Virus record (IMG/VR): IMGVR_UViG_3300008740_000327 | Location: 1 to 48,634 of that record | DNA: 48,634 nt | Strand: one strand, 5' to 3' | Source: a virus | Part shown: in pieces, positions 29,763 to 37,870 of the stretch | Position numbering within the stretch: position 1 is the stretch's first letter | How the letters are laid out: each line of letters starts with the position of its first letter | Notes under the pieces: model-generated | Seen by the model: only the letters and a program-made list of their open reading frames with translations | Database searches by the model: none | Told to the model about the DNA's origin: nothing | Program-made: the position numbers and the translations under genes

Positions 29763-30094
29763 TGGAAGTACCAGGTAGAATATATAGAGCAAGTCATATA
29801 CTAGTAAGCCATATAGAAGCAGAACGTTCTACTAGAACAATGTGTAGAGAAGAAGCATTGTTTTTAGCTGGTGCAATTAGTGAGGAAATAAGAACAGGCA
29901 AATATACCTTTGATCAAGCCGCAAAAATCTATAGTGATTGCCCTAGTGGTAAAGCAAATAACGGAAATTTAGGAACATTTCCAGCAAATAAAATGGATCC
30001 TGATTTTATTGCTTATGTAGACAACTTAAAACCAGGCGAAATCAGTGGTCCTTGCCCTACTGTTTACGGTTTTCACCTTATTAGGAGAAACTAG
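29762..30094 (+). CDS. Parvulin-type peptidyl-prolyl isomerase
   Basis: This 110-residue protein fits the single-domain parvulin (PpiC) family: A-S-H-I-L-V (10-15), A-x-x-Y-S-D-C-P-S-G-K (54-64), G-N-L-G-T-F (68-73) and the closing Y-G-F-H-L-I (102-107). Parvulins speed cis-trans isomerisation of X-Pro bonds during folding. There is no signal peptide, so it works in the cytosol, unlike many bacterial parvulins. It is coupled to the SET protein and ends the operon from 27588, just before a late promoter. Confidence 0.88.
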   Translation: MEVPGRIYRASHILVSHIEAERSTRTMCREEALFLAGAISEEIRTGKYTFDQAAKIYSDCPSGKANNGNLGTFPANKMDPDFIAYVDNLKPGEISGPCPTVYGFHLIRRN

Positions 30095-30100
30095 TCATTA

Positions 30101-30108
30101 GATAAATA
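30101..30108 (+). promoter_or_regulatory. T4-type late promoter
   Basis: GATAAATA (seven of eight) lies 17 bases before the ATG at 30126, with AAAAAAGGG as ribosome site in between. It opens the late block that includes the lysis genes. Confidence 0.6.
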
Positions 30109-30125
30109 TAAAAAAGGGACCTAAT

Positions 30126-30671
30126 ATGCAAGATACAATAGATGTAGTTAAAGCAGTACAAAATGTATTTGATAATGACACCGCTTTCACGGTGCTCAAG
30201 GACTTTGAACGAGTACTTGATGAATTAGACTTATATGTTTATGATAATTGGCAGGACGGTGAATTAGCCGCGGGTCCAATAATTAAAAGACACTTTGTAT
30301 CATGTACTTTTATGTGGCCTAGAAAACAAATGCCCGATCCAATGGGTGGTAAAAGACTTACAGATTACGAGTGCAAAGTATATTTCAAAAAAGATGAACT
30401 TATTGTTCCAAGACAAATTTTAGAACCAGGGGATATGAGAGCAGGAACTAAAAAAGGTAAGCTAGACAAAGCACCTATTTGGTTAGTAGAAATTTTAATG
30501 CCAAAAGAATTAATTCGAAGCATACATAGTGGTTACGAACAAGAAGAAATATATGCACAAGAACCTGCAACTTCAGAAGAAATACCTGCAGAACAACAAG
30601 TAGAACCTGCTGATGCAACAGAACCAGTACCAGCACCAGAACCTACTGCAGAACCTGGTGGAGAGTTTTAA
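30126..30671 (+). CDS. Conserved phage protein with Pro/Glu-rich tail
   Basis: This 181-residue protein has a folded N-terminal ~140 residues (F-T-V-L-K-D-F, D-N-W-Q-D-G-E-L, G-D-M-R-A-G-T-K-K-G-K) and an acidic P/E/A-rich, probably disordered tail. I recognise the D-M-R-x-G-T-K-K-G-K pattern as recurring in T4-like marine phages but know no function. The late promoter suggests a virion role. It overlaps the next gene by one base. Confidence 0.7.
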   Translation: MQDTIDVVKAVQNVFDNDTAFTVLKDFERVLDELDLYVYDNWQDGELAAGPIIKRHFVSCTFMWPRKQMPDPMGGKRLTDYECKVYFKKDELIVPRQILEPGDMRAGTKKGKLDKAPIWLVEILMPKELIRSIHSGYEQEEIYAQEPATSEEIPAEQQVEPADATEPVPAPEPTAEPGGEF

Positions 30672-31399
30672 TGGGACTTCAAAAAAACGATTTAGAATTT
30701 ACTACTGATAGTATATTTGAAATTGACTCTTTTAAATCAAAAATGGGAGACGATAAAGATATAGTAGTTCTTAGTTTCTCTGTTCTTGGAGAACAACCAG
30801 CATTAGATTTAGTAAATTTTGTAGAAAAAGGATATCCTTTTGTATTAGATGCTGACAAAAGCAGTGGAGAACAAGCTGATGGCAAATATAGAGTATTTGT
30901 AGAGTTAGAAAGAAACAATGAAGTTGCAAAACAAGTGTCAGAACTATTAGACGGTATTGGAAAATTAACAAACTTAAACGAATTTAAATTTAGATATTAT
31001 AAAAACTTCAAAAGTCTTTCTGCAGACGCAAAAACTTTAGATGAAGTTATTCCATTTGATCCTACTGCATATGAAACAGCAATAGGTGAAGCCCCAATGG
31101 AAAATTATAAGAATTTCTTTAAAGATAGCTATGTTGATGATATAATTTTAGAAGACACAACAGTAATCTTTAAAAAAAGACGCCATGATCCATTATTTTT
31201 TGAATTTATAGATTATGGTAACACTAAAGAAGTACTAAAATCAATTAAAGAATCCTATGAATTCAATAAATTTCCTGAAATAATTTTCTTGAGTAAGTAT
31301 ATAGGGGACTATAATATATCTATATATGGAAACAAATATGTTCTTGAAAACAAGAACTTCTGTATAGTACTTAAGAAAAAATATGAGACTATCAACTAA
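30671..31399 (+). CDS. Conserved phage protein, function unknown
   Basis: This 242-residue protein has a conserved-looking block (F-V-L-D-A-D-K-S-S-G-E-Q-A-D-G, then R-V-F-V-E-L-E-R-N) typical of a protein shared by T4-like marine phages, followed by F-R-Y-Y-K-N-F. No enzyme motif is evident. It is coupled to its upstream neighbour and overlaps the lysis peptidase by 17 bases. Late expression suggests a structural or assembly role. Confidence 0.72.
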   Translation: MGLQKNDLEFTTDSIFEIDSFKSKMGDDKDIVVLSFSVLGEQPALDLVNFVEKGYPFVLDADKSSGEQADGKYRVFVELERNNEVAKQVSELLDGIGKLTNLNEFKFRYYKNFKSLSADAKTLDEVIPFDPTAYETAIGEAPMENYKNFFKDSYVDDIILEDTTVIFKKRRHDPLFFEFIDYGNTKEVLKSIKESYEFNKFPEIIFLSKYIGDYNISIYGNKYVLENKNFCIVLKKKYETIN

Positions 31400-31844
31400 T
31401 TTTACACTAGAAGAATTCACAAGAAGTCAAACAGCAATACGTCAAAATATTGATAATACACCTACAGAAGAGCATTCTGAAAATCTTAAACTATTATGTG
31501 AGATGATTCTTCAGCCAGTTAGAGATCATTTTGGTCCAATAGCAATCAATTCTGGATATAGAGGAGTAGTATTAAACAAAACTATTGGTGGATCTTTTAA
31601 ATCACAACATTGTCAAGGCCAAGCGGCAGATATTGAATGTCCTGGTACAGGTAATCGCCATGTAGCTGATTGGATTTCAGATAATTGCACTTTCGACCAA
31701 TTAATTCTTGAATTTCACACCCCAGGAATACCTGATTCAGGTTGGGTTCATGTTAGTTTTAATCGTGGATCAAACCGTATGCAACGTTTAAGAGCCGTAA
31801 AAGAAGATGGCAAAACTGTTTATAAAAACGGGCTCACAGAATAA
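31383..31844 (+). CDS. M15-type zinc peptidase, probable endolysin
   Basis: This 153-residue protein fits peptidase family M15 (VanY/endolysin type). Zinc ligands are His76 (S-Q-H), Asp83 (A-A-D) and His123 (W-V-H), with S-G-Y-R-G (57-61) as the usual entry strand and Glu110 near the base position. These enzymes cut peptide bonds in peptidoglycan crosslinks. There is no signal peptide, so it would need a holin, and a candidate lies at 33445. The following spanin-like genes support a lysis role. It overlaps the previous gene by 17 bases. Confidence 0.85.
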   Translation: MRLSTNFTLEEFTRSQTAIRQNIDNTPTEEHSENLKLLCEMILQPVRDHFGPIAINSGYRGVVLNKTIGGSFKSQHCQGQAADIECPGTGNRHVADWISDNCTFDQLILEFHTPGIPDSGWVHVSFNRGSNRMQRLRAVKEDGKTVYKNGLTE

Positions 31845-33832: not shown

Positions 33833-33860
33833 ACAACTTGACTTTTTGGTAAAAAGTTGT
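33833..33860 (+). repeat. Nested inverted repeats in the dnaJ promoter spacer
   Basis: ACTTTTT (33841-33847) and AAAAAGT (33851-33857) form a 7-base inverted repeat around GGT. A second inverted repeat, ACAACTT (33833-33839) and AAGTTGT (33854-33860), spans the -35 box and spacer. The placement fits an operator. Confidence 0.5.
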
Positions 33861-33866
33861 TATATT
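33838..33866 (+). promoter_or_regulatory. sigma70-like promoter of the dnaJ-def-clpA operon
   Basis: TTGACT (33838-33843), a 17-base spacer and TATATT (33861-33866) end 6 bases before the ATG at 33873. As at 27588, the expected start site falls on the A of the start codon, so the mRNA is predicted to be leaderless. Confidence 0.75.
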
Positions 33867-33872
33867 ACTATT

Positions 33873-34727
33873 ATGGCAGATTACTATGATATATTAGGTG
33901 TCAAACGAGGGGCTTCGACAGACGACTTAAAAAAAGCATATAAAAAGAAAGCTATGAAACACCACCCAGACAGAGGTGGAGATGAACAACAGTTTCAGAA
34001 AATTAACGAAGCATACGACACCCTTAAGGATCCTCAAAAAAGAACTATGTATGACCAGTTCGGCGAAACTGGAGGACAACAAGGTTATACGAGAACCTAT
34101 ACTAGTGGCGACTTTGGTGGATTCCCTCATGATATTAGTGATGTAATAAATGATTTCTTCGGTGGCGGACATCATAATCCCTTTGCACGAAGACAAAGAA
34201 TGCGAAATAAAGATATTTCAATTCAAACTACAATTGATTTAGAAGATGTAATGACTGGTAAATCTTTAATTGCAACTTATAGATTATCTAATGGAAAACA
34301 ACAAAGTGTAAATCTTGAATTACCTGCTGGAATAGAATCTAATACTACAATAAAATTTGCCGCTCTTGGTGATAATTCTATAGCAGGAGTACATAGAGGA
34401 GATTTAATGGTTAGAATTAGAGTAACTCCTCATAGAAAATGGCATAGAGACGGAGCAAATTTACATTGTGTAGAAAAAGTAAGTGTATTTGATTTATTAT
34501 TAGGAACTAAAAAAGAAATAAAAACAATAGATAAGAAAAATTTATCTATTTCAATTCCTAAAGGGTGTCAACCAGGTACAGTATTGAGTATTAATGAGCA
34601 AGGATTACCTAAATTACACGGAAGAGGTAGAGGTAATATCTATATGACTGTACAAGCTGAAATACCTAACATAAACGACCCGGAAATATTGAAACTTTTA
34701 CAGAGAATAAAATATGGAACTAATTAA
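33873..34727 (+). CDS. DnaJ/CbpA-like J-domain co-chaperone
   Basis: From the ATG at 33873 the protein has 284 residues; a longer frame back to 33846 would run into the promoter, so I rejected it. The J domain (1-65) has the H-P-D signature (31-33), followed by a G/F-rich linker (about 66-110) and a C-terminal substrate-binding domain. The cysteine-rich zinc finger of DnaJ is missing, as in CbpA-type proteins. It would recruit and stimulate host DnaK. It is first in an operon with deformylase and ClpA and overlaps the deformylase by 14 bases. Confidence 0.93.
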   Translation: MADYYDILGVKRGASTDDLKKAYKKKAMKHHPDRGGDEQQFQKINEAYDTLKDPQKRTMYDQFGETGGQQGYTRTYTSGDFGGFPHDISDVINDFFGGGHHNPFARRQRMRNKDISIQTTIDLEDVMTGKSLIATYRLSNGKQQSVNLELPAGIESNTTIKFAALGDNSIAGVHRGDLMVRIRVTPHRKWHRDGANLHCVEKVSVFDLLLGTKKEIKTIDKKNLSISIPKGCQPGTVLSINEQGLPKLHGRGRGNIYMTVQAEIPNINDPEILKLLQRIKYGTN

Positions 34728-35235
34728 ATATCCAAATGAATTTTTAGACAAAAAAGTTAAACCTTTTGACTGGGAAAATTTGGATTCTGAAAAAATTGAA
34801 CAAGAAATGATATCTATTATGATGAATAGTGATGGTATCGGCTTGGCGGCAAATCAAGTTAGTTTAGATGCAAGAGTTTTTACAATATTTCCAAAAAGAA
34901 CTAAAGGAATTACTAAACCTTTTGCTGTAATTGACCCTACAATTGAGCAAATAAGTCTTAATAAAATTGAAGATGTAGAAGGTTGTCTTAGTTTTCCAAA
35001 ATTATGGATTAAAGTCAGAAGACCAGAAAAGGTTACCGTTAAATTCCTTGACAGCAAACAAAAAGAGTGTATAATGGAGTTTAGTGGTTATGATGCAAGA
35101 TGTTTTTTGCATGAATACGACCATTTGGAGGGTATAACGTTCGTTAATCCTGCAAGAGTCAGTAAATTAAGGTTAGATATGGCTTTAAAAAAGCAAAAAA
35201 AAGCATTAAAGGAATTAGAACATGGTAGAGCCTAG
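34714..35235 (+). CDS. def: Peptide deformylase
   Basis: This 173-residue metalloenzyme removes the formyl group from nascent proteins. All three motifs are present: G-I-G-L-A-A-N-Q (41-48), E-G-C-L-S (89-93, metal ligand Cys91) and H-E-Y-D-H (133-137, ligands His133 and His137, base Glu134). It has close to bacterial length and keeps a C-terminal helix that many phage deformylases lack. Phage deformylases are known in marine phages. It overlaps dnaJ and clpA by 14 bases each, so the three are strongly coupled. Formate, its product, is the substrate of the dehydrogenase at 48183. Confidence 0.94.
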   Translation: MELIKYPNEFLDKKVKPFDWENLDSEKIEQEMISIMMNSDGIGLAANQVSLDARVFTIFPKRTKGITKPFAVIDPTIEQISLNKIEDVEGCLSFPKLWIKVRRPEKVTVKFLDSKQKECIMEFSGYDARCFLHEYDHLEGITFVNPARVSKLRLDMALKKQKKALKELEHGRA

Positions 35236-37468
35236 TCAAGAGTTACAATTAGTTTTTGATAAAGCAGTTGTTGATGCTAAAAAGTTAAAGCATGAATACG
35301 TAACTGTAGAACATTTACTATATGCAATGCTATGCACTGACAAATTTGCAAATATGATTAAAGGGTTTGGTGCAGATATTGACGATTTAAAAACAGAAGT
35401 AGAACAATACCTTAAAAATAAATTAAAAACTATAACACTTGAAAATATTTCAAAATATAAACCTAAAAAAACAACAAGTGTAGAAAGAATACTAAACAGA
35501 GCATTTACACAGGTGTTGTTTAGTGGTAGAAGTCATATAGATATTACAGATGTATTTCTAAGTATGATGAGTGAAAAGAAAAGTTGGGCTTATTACTTCA
35601 TTATGAAGACTGAAATAAGCAAAGACAAGTTTCAAGAGTATGTTTCTGCAGAAATGGAATCTTTATATGAAGATGAAGTTGATCAATCCGCGGCAAAAAG
35701 AGCATTAGGTCTTTATACTACAAATTTAAACAGCGAAGTTAAAAAGAAAAGAATAGATCCTGTAATAGGTAGAGTAGAAGAGTTAAATTCTATAGCATTA
35801 GCATTAGGAAGAAGAACTAAAAACAATGTAATCCTAGTAGGAGATCCTGGAGTAGGTAAAACTGCTATTGCAGAAGGACTAGCATTTAATATTGAAAAAG
35901 AAACTTGCCCAGATTTTTTAAAAGAATACAAAGTATACAATTTAGACATTGGTGGTATGTTAGCTGGTTCTAAATATAGAGGAGATTTTGAAGAAAGATT
36001 TAAACTTGTATTATCTGCATTAAAAAAGAAAGGTAAAACTATTTGTTTTATAGATGAAGCACACAATATTAGTGGAGCAGGTGCTGGTGGGACTACAAAT
36101 AGTAATGATTTAGCTAATTTATTAAAACCAGTATTAACTAAAGGTGACCTTAAAGTTGTTGCATCAACTACTTGGGAAGAATATAGAAAGTATTTTGAAA
36201 AAGATAGAGCATTAATGAGAAGATTTCAAAGAATATCTGTAGATGAACCTGATAAACCAACTACAGTTAAAATATTACACGGACTTAGAAAGTATTATGA
36301 AGACTTTCACAATATTGCAATAACGGATCAAGCAATTAATGAAGCAGTTAAGACCAGTGTTAAGTATCAAAGCGATAAAAAATTACCTGATAAGGCAATT
36401 GATCTAATAGATTTAGCTTGTAGTAGATTTAATCTTAAAGATCCTAATACTGAAAAAGTAATAGGAGCAGAAGAAATTCAATTTGAAATAGCAAAAGCTA
36501 TTAAAATGCCAGTTGAAAACGTTCAACAAAAAGAATCTTCAGCACTTGCTAACTTAGATAGAAATATGAAGAGTGGTGTGTTTGGACAAGATAAAGCCAT
36601 AGAAGCAATTATTGATAAAATTATGGTAGCACACGCAGGATTAAAAAGAGATAATAAACCAATTGGGTCATTTGTGTTTATGGGTCCAACTGGTTGTGGT
36701 AAAACAGAAACAGCAAAACAACTTTCAAACCATTTAGGTGTAAAATTAGTTAGATTTGATATGTCAGAGTATCAAGAAAAACACGCAGTTGCAAAATTAA
36801 TTGGATCTCCTCCGGGATATGTTGGATTTGAAGAAAATACAGGATTGCTTATTACAAAATTACAAGAAAGTCCTAATTGTGTATTACTATTAGATGAAAT
36901 AGAAAAAGCACACCCAGACGTAAGTCAAATATTACTTCAAATAATGGATGAAGGAACAATTATGGGTAACAATGGTAAAGAAGCAGACTGTAAAAATATT
37001 ACATTAATTTTAACTACTAATTTAGGTGCAGATCAACTAGATAAAAATGTTATGGGATTCACTGATTCCCAATCTACTAGCGAATATGATGATAAAGAGA
37101 TGAAAAAATTCTTTCCACCAGAATTTAGAAACAGATTAGATGGTACTATTGTATTCAAAAAACTATCTAAAGAAATACTGATAAAAATTGTTGGTAAATT
37201 TATGCTAGAACTTAAAATGTTACTAAAAGACAAAAATACAGTACTAGAATTAAGCGATGAAGCTATAGACTGGTTAGTAGAAAAAGGACATGACGATAAA
37301 ATGGGTGCTAGACCTATGCAAAGGCTCATAGATGAGAGAATTAAGAAGCCTCTGTCCAAAGAATTGCTATTCGGTAAGTTAAAAAATGGTGGTAAAGCTA
37401 AAATAGACGCCAAAGACAAAGAAATTACAATAATCTACGAAGAAGCTGTCAAACTCATCAAGAGTTAG
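35222..37468 (+). CDS. ClpA-like double AAA+ unfoldase
   Basis: This 748-residue protein has a Clp N domain (about 1-145), a first AAA+ module (Walker A G-D-P-G-V-G-K-T, 207-214; Walker B C-F-I-D-E-A, 275-280) and a second (Walker A G-P-T-G-C-G-K-T, 488-495; L-L-L-D-E-I-E-K-A-H-P, 555-565). It lacks the long middle coiled coil of ClpB, and its size fits ClpA (758 residues). At 611-613 it carries M-G-F, which matches the ClpP-docking tripeptide (I/L/M-G-F/L) at the ClpA position (IGL near 617). I infer it unfolds proteins for host ClpP; no clpP gene is in the window. Confidence 0.92.
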   Translation: MVEPSQELQLVFDKAVVDAKKLKHEYVTVEHLLYAMLCTDKFANMIKGFGADIDDLKTEVEQYLKNKLKTITLENISKYKPKKTTSVERILNRAFTQVLFSGRSHIDITDVFLSMMSEKKSWAYYFIMKTEISKDKFQEYVSAEMESLYEDEVDQSAAKRALGLYTTNLNSEVKKKRIDPVIGRVEELNSIALALGRRTKNNVILVGDPGVGKTAIAEGLAFNIEKETCPDFLKEYKVYNLDIGGMLAGSKYRGDFEERFKLVLSALKKKGKTICFIDEAHNISGAGAGGTTNSNDLANLLKPVLTKGDLKVVASTTWEEYRKYFEKDRALMRRFQRISVDEPDKPTTVKILHGLRKYYEDFHNIAITDQAINEAVKTSVKYQSDKKLPDKAIDLIDLACSRFNLKDPNTEKVIGAEEIQFEIAKAIKMPVENVQQKESSALANLDRNMKSGVFGQDKAIEAIIDKIMVAHAGLKRDNKPIGSFVFMGPTGCGKTETAKQLSNHLGVKLVRFDMSEYQEKHAVAKLIGSPPGYVGFEENTGLLITKLQESPNCVLLLDEIEKAHPDVSQILLQIMDEGTIMGNNGKEADCKNITLILTTNLGADQLDKNVMGFTDSQSTSEYDDKEMKKFFPPEFRNRLDGTIVFKKLSKEILIKIVGKFMLELKMLLKDKNTVLELSDEAIDWLVEKGHDDKMGARPMQRLIDERIKKPLSKELLFGKLKNGGKAKIDAKDKEITIIYEEAVKLIKS

Positions 37469-37494
37469 CCTTGCACCTTAGGATAGGCATATAG

Positions 37495-37502
37495 GATAAA
37501 TA
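37495..37502 (+). promoter_or_regulatory. T4-type late promoter, 5 bases from the start codon
   Basis: GATAAATA (seven of eight) is followed by TCAGT and then the ATG at 37508. The expected start site is the A of the ATG, so the message should be leaderless. Confidence 0.65.
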
Positions 37503-37507
37503 TCAGT

Positions 37508-37870
37508 ATGTCAGCTATTAGCGAAACAATAATGTCAGCAACTTCCCACCCGGGAGATAGTACAGTCGAGACTGTAGAAGGTACTGCCTATAAAGGTGAT
37601 GGGTATTACAGCAGAGCAGATGGGTTTCATACTGTTCAAATAACAGTTGCAGGCTTTATAGGTACTATTAAATTACAAGCCACGTTAGCAACTACGCCTA
37701 CAGCTACTGATTGGTTTGATATTAGTGGTGTAACCCATACTAGTACTGCAACAACTGACGCAGAAGCAGATGGTTCAAAAGTTTTTAATTTTACAGGAAA
37801 TTTTGTTTGGGTAAGAGCACATTTGGTATATACTGACGGATCAATTAATTCCGTGAAGTTAAACCATTAA
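37508..37870 (+). CDS. Small beta-rich virion-like protein
   Basis: This 120-residue protein is rich in Thr, Gly and Val and reads as a beta sandwich (for example F-H-T-V-Q-I-T-V-A-G-F, I-K-L-Q-A-T-L-A, V-W-V-R-A-H-L-V-Y). That look is typical of small virion decoration or tail proteins. It is under a late promoter. Homology could not be checked. Confidence 0.65.
   Translation: MSAISETIMSATSHPGDSTVETVEGTAYKGDGYYSRADGFHTVQITVAGFIGTIKLQATLATTPTATDWFDISGVTHTSTATTDAEADGSKVFNFTGNFVWVRAHLVYTDGSINSVKLNH

Follow-up and report, generated by a model that had tools for sequence, protein, structure and literature searches.

A DnaJ–ClpA cassette of a large marine phage and its relatives with a conserved ClpP-docking loop and a predicted promoter within an optional peptide deformylase gene

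The cassette and its genes

The DNA stretch analysed here (hereafter the window), virus record IMGVR_UViG_3300008740_000327 of IMG/VR, comprises 48,634 bases, is classed as a linear fragment and originates from a large marine bacterial virus. It carries a cassette of three open reading frames (ORFs) arranged in tandem on the plus strand, which encode a DnaJ-like J-domain co-chaperone of the class B type (33873..34727), a peptide deformylase (PDF; 34714..35235) and a ClpA unfoldase of 748 amino acids (aa) (35222..37468). Consecutive genes overlap by 14 nucleotides (nt), at 34714-34727 and 35222-35235, and this arrangement, described in an initial annotation of the window, is borne out by the ORF coordinates and by the Pfam matches (PF00226 and PF01556, i.e. 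DnaJ and DnaJ_C; Pep_deformylase; and, in ClpA, Clp_N, AAA, AAA_2, AAA_lid_9 and ClpB_D2-small).

Each product retains the motifs of its family. The J-protein contains the HPD motif and a DnaJ_C domain and lacks the CxxCxGxG zinc finger, as befits class B; among the cassette DnaJs, HPD is found in 75/75 and the zinc finger in 0/75. The deformylase motifs GxGxAAxQ, EGCLS and HExDH are all present in the window protein (as GIGLAANQ, EGCLS and HEYDH), with EGC kept in 43/43 relatives and HExDH in 42/43. ClpA combines a Clp_N domain with two AAA+ modules whose Walker A motifs are intact, here and in 81/81 related viral ClpAs, and its catalytic motifs and pore loops (KYRG and GYVG) are preserved. 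Its alignment with E. coli ClpA spans the full length of both proteins (748 versus 758 aa) and shows no long insertion, hence no middle domain of the ClpB/ClpC type. An in-frame TTG at 33846 was considered as the start of DnaJ and ruled out, as related loci contain in-frame stops nearer the ATG at 33873.

Linkage of DnaJ to ClpA and the ClpP-docking loop

Relatives of this ClpA occur in at least 598 IMG/VR stretches, 80 of which were examined. DnaJ lies directly upstream of ClpA in all 79 viral contigs, the window included, where that position is visible. PDF, on the other hand, is optional: it separates the two genes in 42 contigs and is missing in 37, with at least 12 state changes (gains or losses) on a quick ClpA tree. 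The bacterial clpS-clpA operon shares the ClpA architecture and the docking loop but differs in its neighbour, since clpS is adjacent in 73 of the 76 bacterial loci inspected and DnaJ is directly upstream in none. The invariant adjacency supports a putative functional link between DnaJ and ClpA. Four loci assigned to bacterial genome bins (L116-L119) have the appearance of misbinned phage contigs in metagenome-assembled genomes; the cassette and neighbouring phage genes are present in L116, L118 and L119, and L117 is truncated. Conversely, the best two "phage" ClpA matches (Acinetobacter phage MD-2021a; L001 and L002) showed bacterial chromosomal gene content together with clpS-clpA and were discarded as a database mislabel.

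The linkage also exists in cultured phages, namely Phosso, Atu_ph07 and Callisto. Sinorhizobium phage Phosso (PV764938) resembles the window in its order of DnaJ-like protein, peptide deformylase and Clp ATPase, in its xGF docking loop and in a near-consensus promoter embedded in PDF. It differs in its 469-kb genome, in a ClpA only ~40% identical, in genes that adjoin without the 14-nt overlaps, and in the PDF codon at which the promoter is embedded. In the Agrobacterium jumbo phage Atu_ph07, DnaJ (gp293) likewise lies directly upstream of ClpA (gp292), which has an IGF loop, but the cassette has no PDF; its published description also names ClpX, ClpB, ClpS and a subunit of ClpP, and interprets them in terms of aggregate clearance or host survival (PMC6102473). 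The gene content is known from jumbo phages, in which ClpA, ClpP, ClpS and DnaJ appear as separate observations in a comparative genomics study (PMC7824862) and in a report on moraphages (PMC12619734). Within the phage Clp/DnaJ literature consulted, which was covered in part, neither the DnaJ-(PDF)-ClpA order, nor the docking-loop contrast presented below, nor the embedded promoter was found described, and a search for phage, ClpA, DnaJ and peptide deformylase together returned no relevant report.

A phage J-domain protein could also act on its own. Rki of the T4-related phage RB43 interferes with DnaK, is produced early and is described as no generic co-chaperone; the abstract of that work reports no link to ClpA (PMC3486835). 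By this precedent, the window DnaJ would be a decoy or regulator of host DnaK, sharing with ClpA only the timing of host takeover, and the failure to find a phage DnaK in most records fits such a role. However, the cassette DnaJ keeps the full C-terminal substrate domain, and its strict adjacency to ClpA extends across deep divergence, so we consider this explanation quite unlikely. DnaK does occur in some relatives. In one of them, a 148-kb contig (G054; L292-L293, 139546-143197), a GroEL-like gene lies directly beside a full-length DnaK near the contig end, which is an unusual order.

The initial annotation placed M-G-F, residues 611-613 of ClpA (codons at 37052..37060, plus strand), at the position of the IGL loop that E. 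coli ClpA inserts into ClpP. The end-to-end protein alignment puts M-G-F onto IGL, and a structure model agrees with the placement: built from 28 sequences (mean pLDDT 80), it matches ClpA of a ClpAP structure (7uiv_C; Z 34.1, rmsd 4.3 over 577 residues) and shows residues 609-622 as a disordered segment flanked by two helices, at the place expected for the flexible docking loop. Among 83 aligned ClpAs, which comprise 81 viral proteins and two from bacterial contigs filed as phage, the tripeptide reads IGF in 75, MGF in seven and LGF in one, and [IML]GF is present in 81/81 of the viral set; MGF also occurs in 4/76 bacterial ClpAs. The ClpAs of Atu_ph07, Phosso and Callisto, all linked to DnaJ, carry IGF. 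In contrast, jumbo-phage ClpAs without DnaJ (e.g. 121Q, RaK2 and Munch) read IGM, IGV, MGM, MNM, VGM or IGY, with XaC1 (VGF) as the sole xGF among them; as these solitary ClpAs mostly form one clade, the contrast reflects few events, and a Fisher value computed for it does not amount to independent evidence. Docking of ClpA on ClpP is well supported by sequence, and binding itself may be expected from it. As a separate observation, the solitary ClpA of Klebsiella phage fENko-Kae01 (L199), with the tripeptide MNM, is annotated as identified by LC-MS/MS.

The loop also bears on a proteolysis-independent role, in which DnaJ, host DnaK and ClpA would act on virion proteins, disaggregating or assembling them in the way that ClpB works with DnaK/DnaJ. 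Such a chaperone module would agree with the linkage of ClpA to DnaJ rather than to ClpS and with the location of the cassette amid structural and late genes, and the loss of a good docking loop in the solitary jumbo-phage ClpAs suggests that ClpP-free roles may exist. Yet a ClpP-free role leaves unexplained why the loop is invariant in the DnaJ-linked lineage, and we regard it as unlikely.

Predicted promoters of the cassette

The initial annotation had assigned a single promoter to the three genes. A predicted promoter, P1 (33838..33866, plus strand), does precede dnaJ and consists of TTGACT (33838-33843), a 17-nt spacer and TATATT (33861-33866). Conservation marks the predicted P1 as real, and its core is identical in a same-species contig (G063). 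The claim of one shared promoter was nevertheless not upheld, since a second, perfect and more widely conserved site, P2 (35048..35075, plus strand; TTGACA, 16 nt, TATAAT), was found inside the PDF coding sequence, with its -10 ending 146 nt ahead of the ClpA ATG. In a pattern scan P2 was the only 12/12 σ70 match in the window.

Conservation of P2 is visible at synonymous positions. The first 16 PDF-bearing loci to be sampled all had a site scoring 10-12, and some other loci have a weaker -10. In a codon comparison of 26 PDFs less than 85% identical, the codons under P2 were kept across diverged proteins (Leu112 as CTT in 24/24, Asp113 as GAC in 25/25 and Cys119 as TGT in 25/25), whereas other conserved leucine columns of PDF use four to six codons and the background frequencies within the codon families are 0.185 for CTT and 0.349 for GAC. 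Moreover, in the -10 region the bases are kept even though the residues vary (Ile/Thr/Lys as A[TCA]A). Independent embedded sites, likewise putative promoters, occur at other PDF codons, at codon 105 in Phosso and at codon 69 in L118 and L119. Among contigs without PDF, 23 of 31 distinct upstream regions have, in the 170 nt preceding ClpA, a site scoring 10/12 or better, which in most cases falls between DnaJ and ClpA. Sites scoring 11/12 or better in the 170 nt upstream were counted for ClpA in 42/69 cases, for DnaJ in 18/60 and for ten other genes in 2/323. A perfect P2 inside PDF predicts that ClpA can be transcribed alone.

The -10 of P1 ends 6 nt ahead of the DnaJ ATG, so that the dnaJ mRNA is predicted to be leaderless, starting at or next to the A of AUG. 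This spacing recurs among 59 distinct DnaJ upstream regions: 19 have a σ70-like site whose -10 ends 5-7 nt before the ATG, 28 have ATAA[AG]TA ending exactly 5 nt before it and, of the 12 remaining, six have a looser TAA[AG]TA at 5 nt (read by eye). The spacing of T4 late promoters, counted from an octamer 5 nt before the ATG, places +1 on the A of AUG. In Phosso, Callisto and Atu_ph07, no site of the leaderless type was observed ahead of dnaJ. The spacer of P1 contains a palindrome-like sequence, which was not conserved in relatives and was set aside.

Across related contigs totalling 1.48 Mb, the distance from TAAATA to ATG-initiated ORFs peaks sharply at 5 nt (78 sites, compared with 22 and 3 at the neighbouring distances), with a further, broad hump at ~16-30 nt. 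The peak implies that leaderless spacing is a lineage-wide feature that is not specific to DnaJ, and leaderless late mRNAs appear to be common in these phages, judging from the predicted sites. In the window, TAAATA stands exactly 5 nt before an ATG at 37495-37508, 44710 and 44991, as it does in related contigs. The first of these belongs to a T4-late-type octamer (GATAAATA; 37495..37502, plus strand) that precedes, with leaderless spacing, the conserved gene downstream of the cassette (37508..37870, plus strand). Weakly similar to PHROGs without an assigned function and to a virion structural protein, this gene is a marker of the late region that follows the cassette.

Candidate ClpP partners and the proposed role of the cassette

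No ClpP is encoded within the window, in agreement with the initial annotation, but the window is a fragment that extends only 11.2 kb past ClpA, and same-species contigs carry a ClpP-like gene beyond its right end. Three contigs (G063, G064 and G061) encode ClpAs 96-98% identical to that of the window and have a ClpP-like gene on the same strand. G063 aligns to window positions 22.3-47.6 kb in blocks of 93-98% nucleotide identity, with one block at 89%, and its ClpP-like gene (37094-37609) starts ~21.7 kb after ClpA. The product matches PF00574 (E 7e-30) and has the Ser, His and Asp triad positions, in a sequence diverged from cellular ClpP; a single-sequence fold was too poor to be used (pLDDT 50). 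Other relatives carry bona fide ClpP, and ClpP was not seen in several long fragments, including G020 (156 kb), G034 (165 kb) and G029 (156 kb). The suggested search of the rest of the genome for clpP or clpS, performed on these same-species contigs, uncovered the ClpP-like gene, while neither the window record nor three same-species fragments yielded a ClpS, and none was found in 90 kb of this species. ClpS is present in the 148-kb relative and in six other relatives; in the former it adjoins a phage heme oxygenase gene (PF01126; L290, 14251-14787).

A role of the ClpP-like protein as a T4-type head protease was disfavoured by position, given that in G029 and G034 the neighbour of the portal is an S77 protease, although the sequence leaves room for it. 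No portal was found in those contigs bearing the ClpP-like gene that were searched for one (G054, G063, G064, G014 and G004), and their head clusters therefore appear to be missing.

These results bear on the proposal of the initial annotation that the phage redirects host ClpP. In that scheme the phage supplies the unfoldase only, host ClpP carries out the degradation, substrates are delivered by DnaJ and N-terminal signals are altered by PDF. The docking loop on which it was founded stands, and some long relatives (G020, G034 and G029) lack a visible ClpP, albeit as fragments in which absence is no proof. Reliance on host ClpP, however, becomes only one option because the same species encodes a ClpP-like protease and other relatives bona fide ClpP, and it retains some plausibility because the docking pockets of the ClpP-like protein look diverged. 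An optional PDF and the lack of ClpS in the 90 kb of the same species speak against the scheme too, and we consider it possible though somewhat unlikely. Its N-degron component fared worse, being weakly supported given the repeated gain or loss of PDF, the lack of ClpS and the frequency of PDF in marine phages, pelagimyophages among them (PMC7029224). The evidence disfavours an essential part for PDF in the mechanism.

The comparisons establish gene identity, DnaJ–ClpA linkage, the docking loop, the predicted embedded promoter and the same-species ClpP-like gene. They support a selected DnaJ–ClpA unit that would be able to dock on ClpP and in which ClpA is separately controlled. We favour, with a probability of roughly 0.6, a phage proteostasis cassette expressed as two units, whose ClpA docks on host ClpP or on the phage ClpP-like protein. 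ClpP binding, substrate hand-over and timing are inferred as follows. ClpA would most likely unfold selected proteins and thread them into the ClpP chamber, and DnaJ would recruit DnaK and either hand clients to ClpA or keep virion proteins soluble. The clpA gene could be transcribed alone from the host-type σ70 promoter in PDF (in PDF-less contigs, from the one between DnaJ and ClpA), and dnaJ(-pdf-clpA) from the leaderless-type promoter. Such an arrangement might allow ClpA to be supplied early and separately to act on host proteins, with a chaperone role that is exerted later or in parallel.

Several observations weigh against this cassette model. Adjacency of DnaJ and ClpA is not interaction; the positions of the ClpP-like protein equivalent to the docking pocket look, by eye, diverged from E. 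coli ClpP; and the best PHROG of this protein, through a close homologue, is "head maturation protease", so that it may not be the partner of ClpA. Furthermore, P1 and P2 are predicted promoters, defined by consensus matches and codon statistics on related sequences. A stronger version seems to us doubtful: the phage would possess a ClpAP-DnaJ(K) machine complete in itself, with DnaJ replacing ClpS as the partner gene of ClpA, early ClpA arising from a promoter in synonymous codons of an inserted PDF and DnaJ being made from a leaderless mRNA.

Phage Clp and J proteins have so far been listed genome by genome, with their role unclear. The invariant linkage, the conserved loop (degenerate in the DnaJ-less clade) and the synonymous-site promoter constitute a testable case for a cassette selected as a targeted-proteolysis unit. 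The embedded promoter illustrates how a gene can be added to a phage operon while the downstream gene stays under separate control, and leaderless spacing at many genes suggests a translation mode of interest in large aquatic phages.

Two further gene groups were noted in related contigs. One contig (L103; G004, 34649-37097) carries a MoxR-like AAA ATPase followed by a DUF2201 metallopeptidase/VWA protein, a type of pair described in jumbo phages (PMC7824862). The same locus (G004, 30011-31577) and L102 (14238-15290) contain GTP cyclohydrolase I, QueE-like radical SAM and IMPDH/GMP reductase-type genes, a combination that suggests modification of DNA with 7-deazaguanine.

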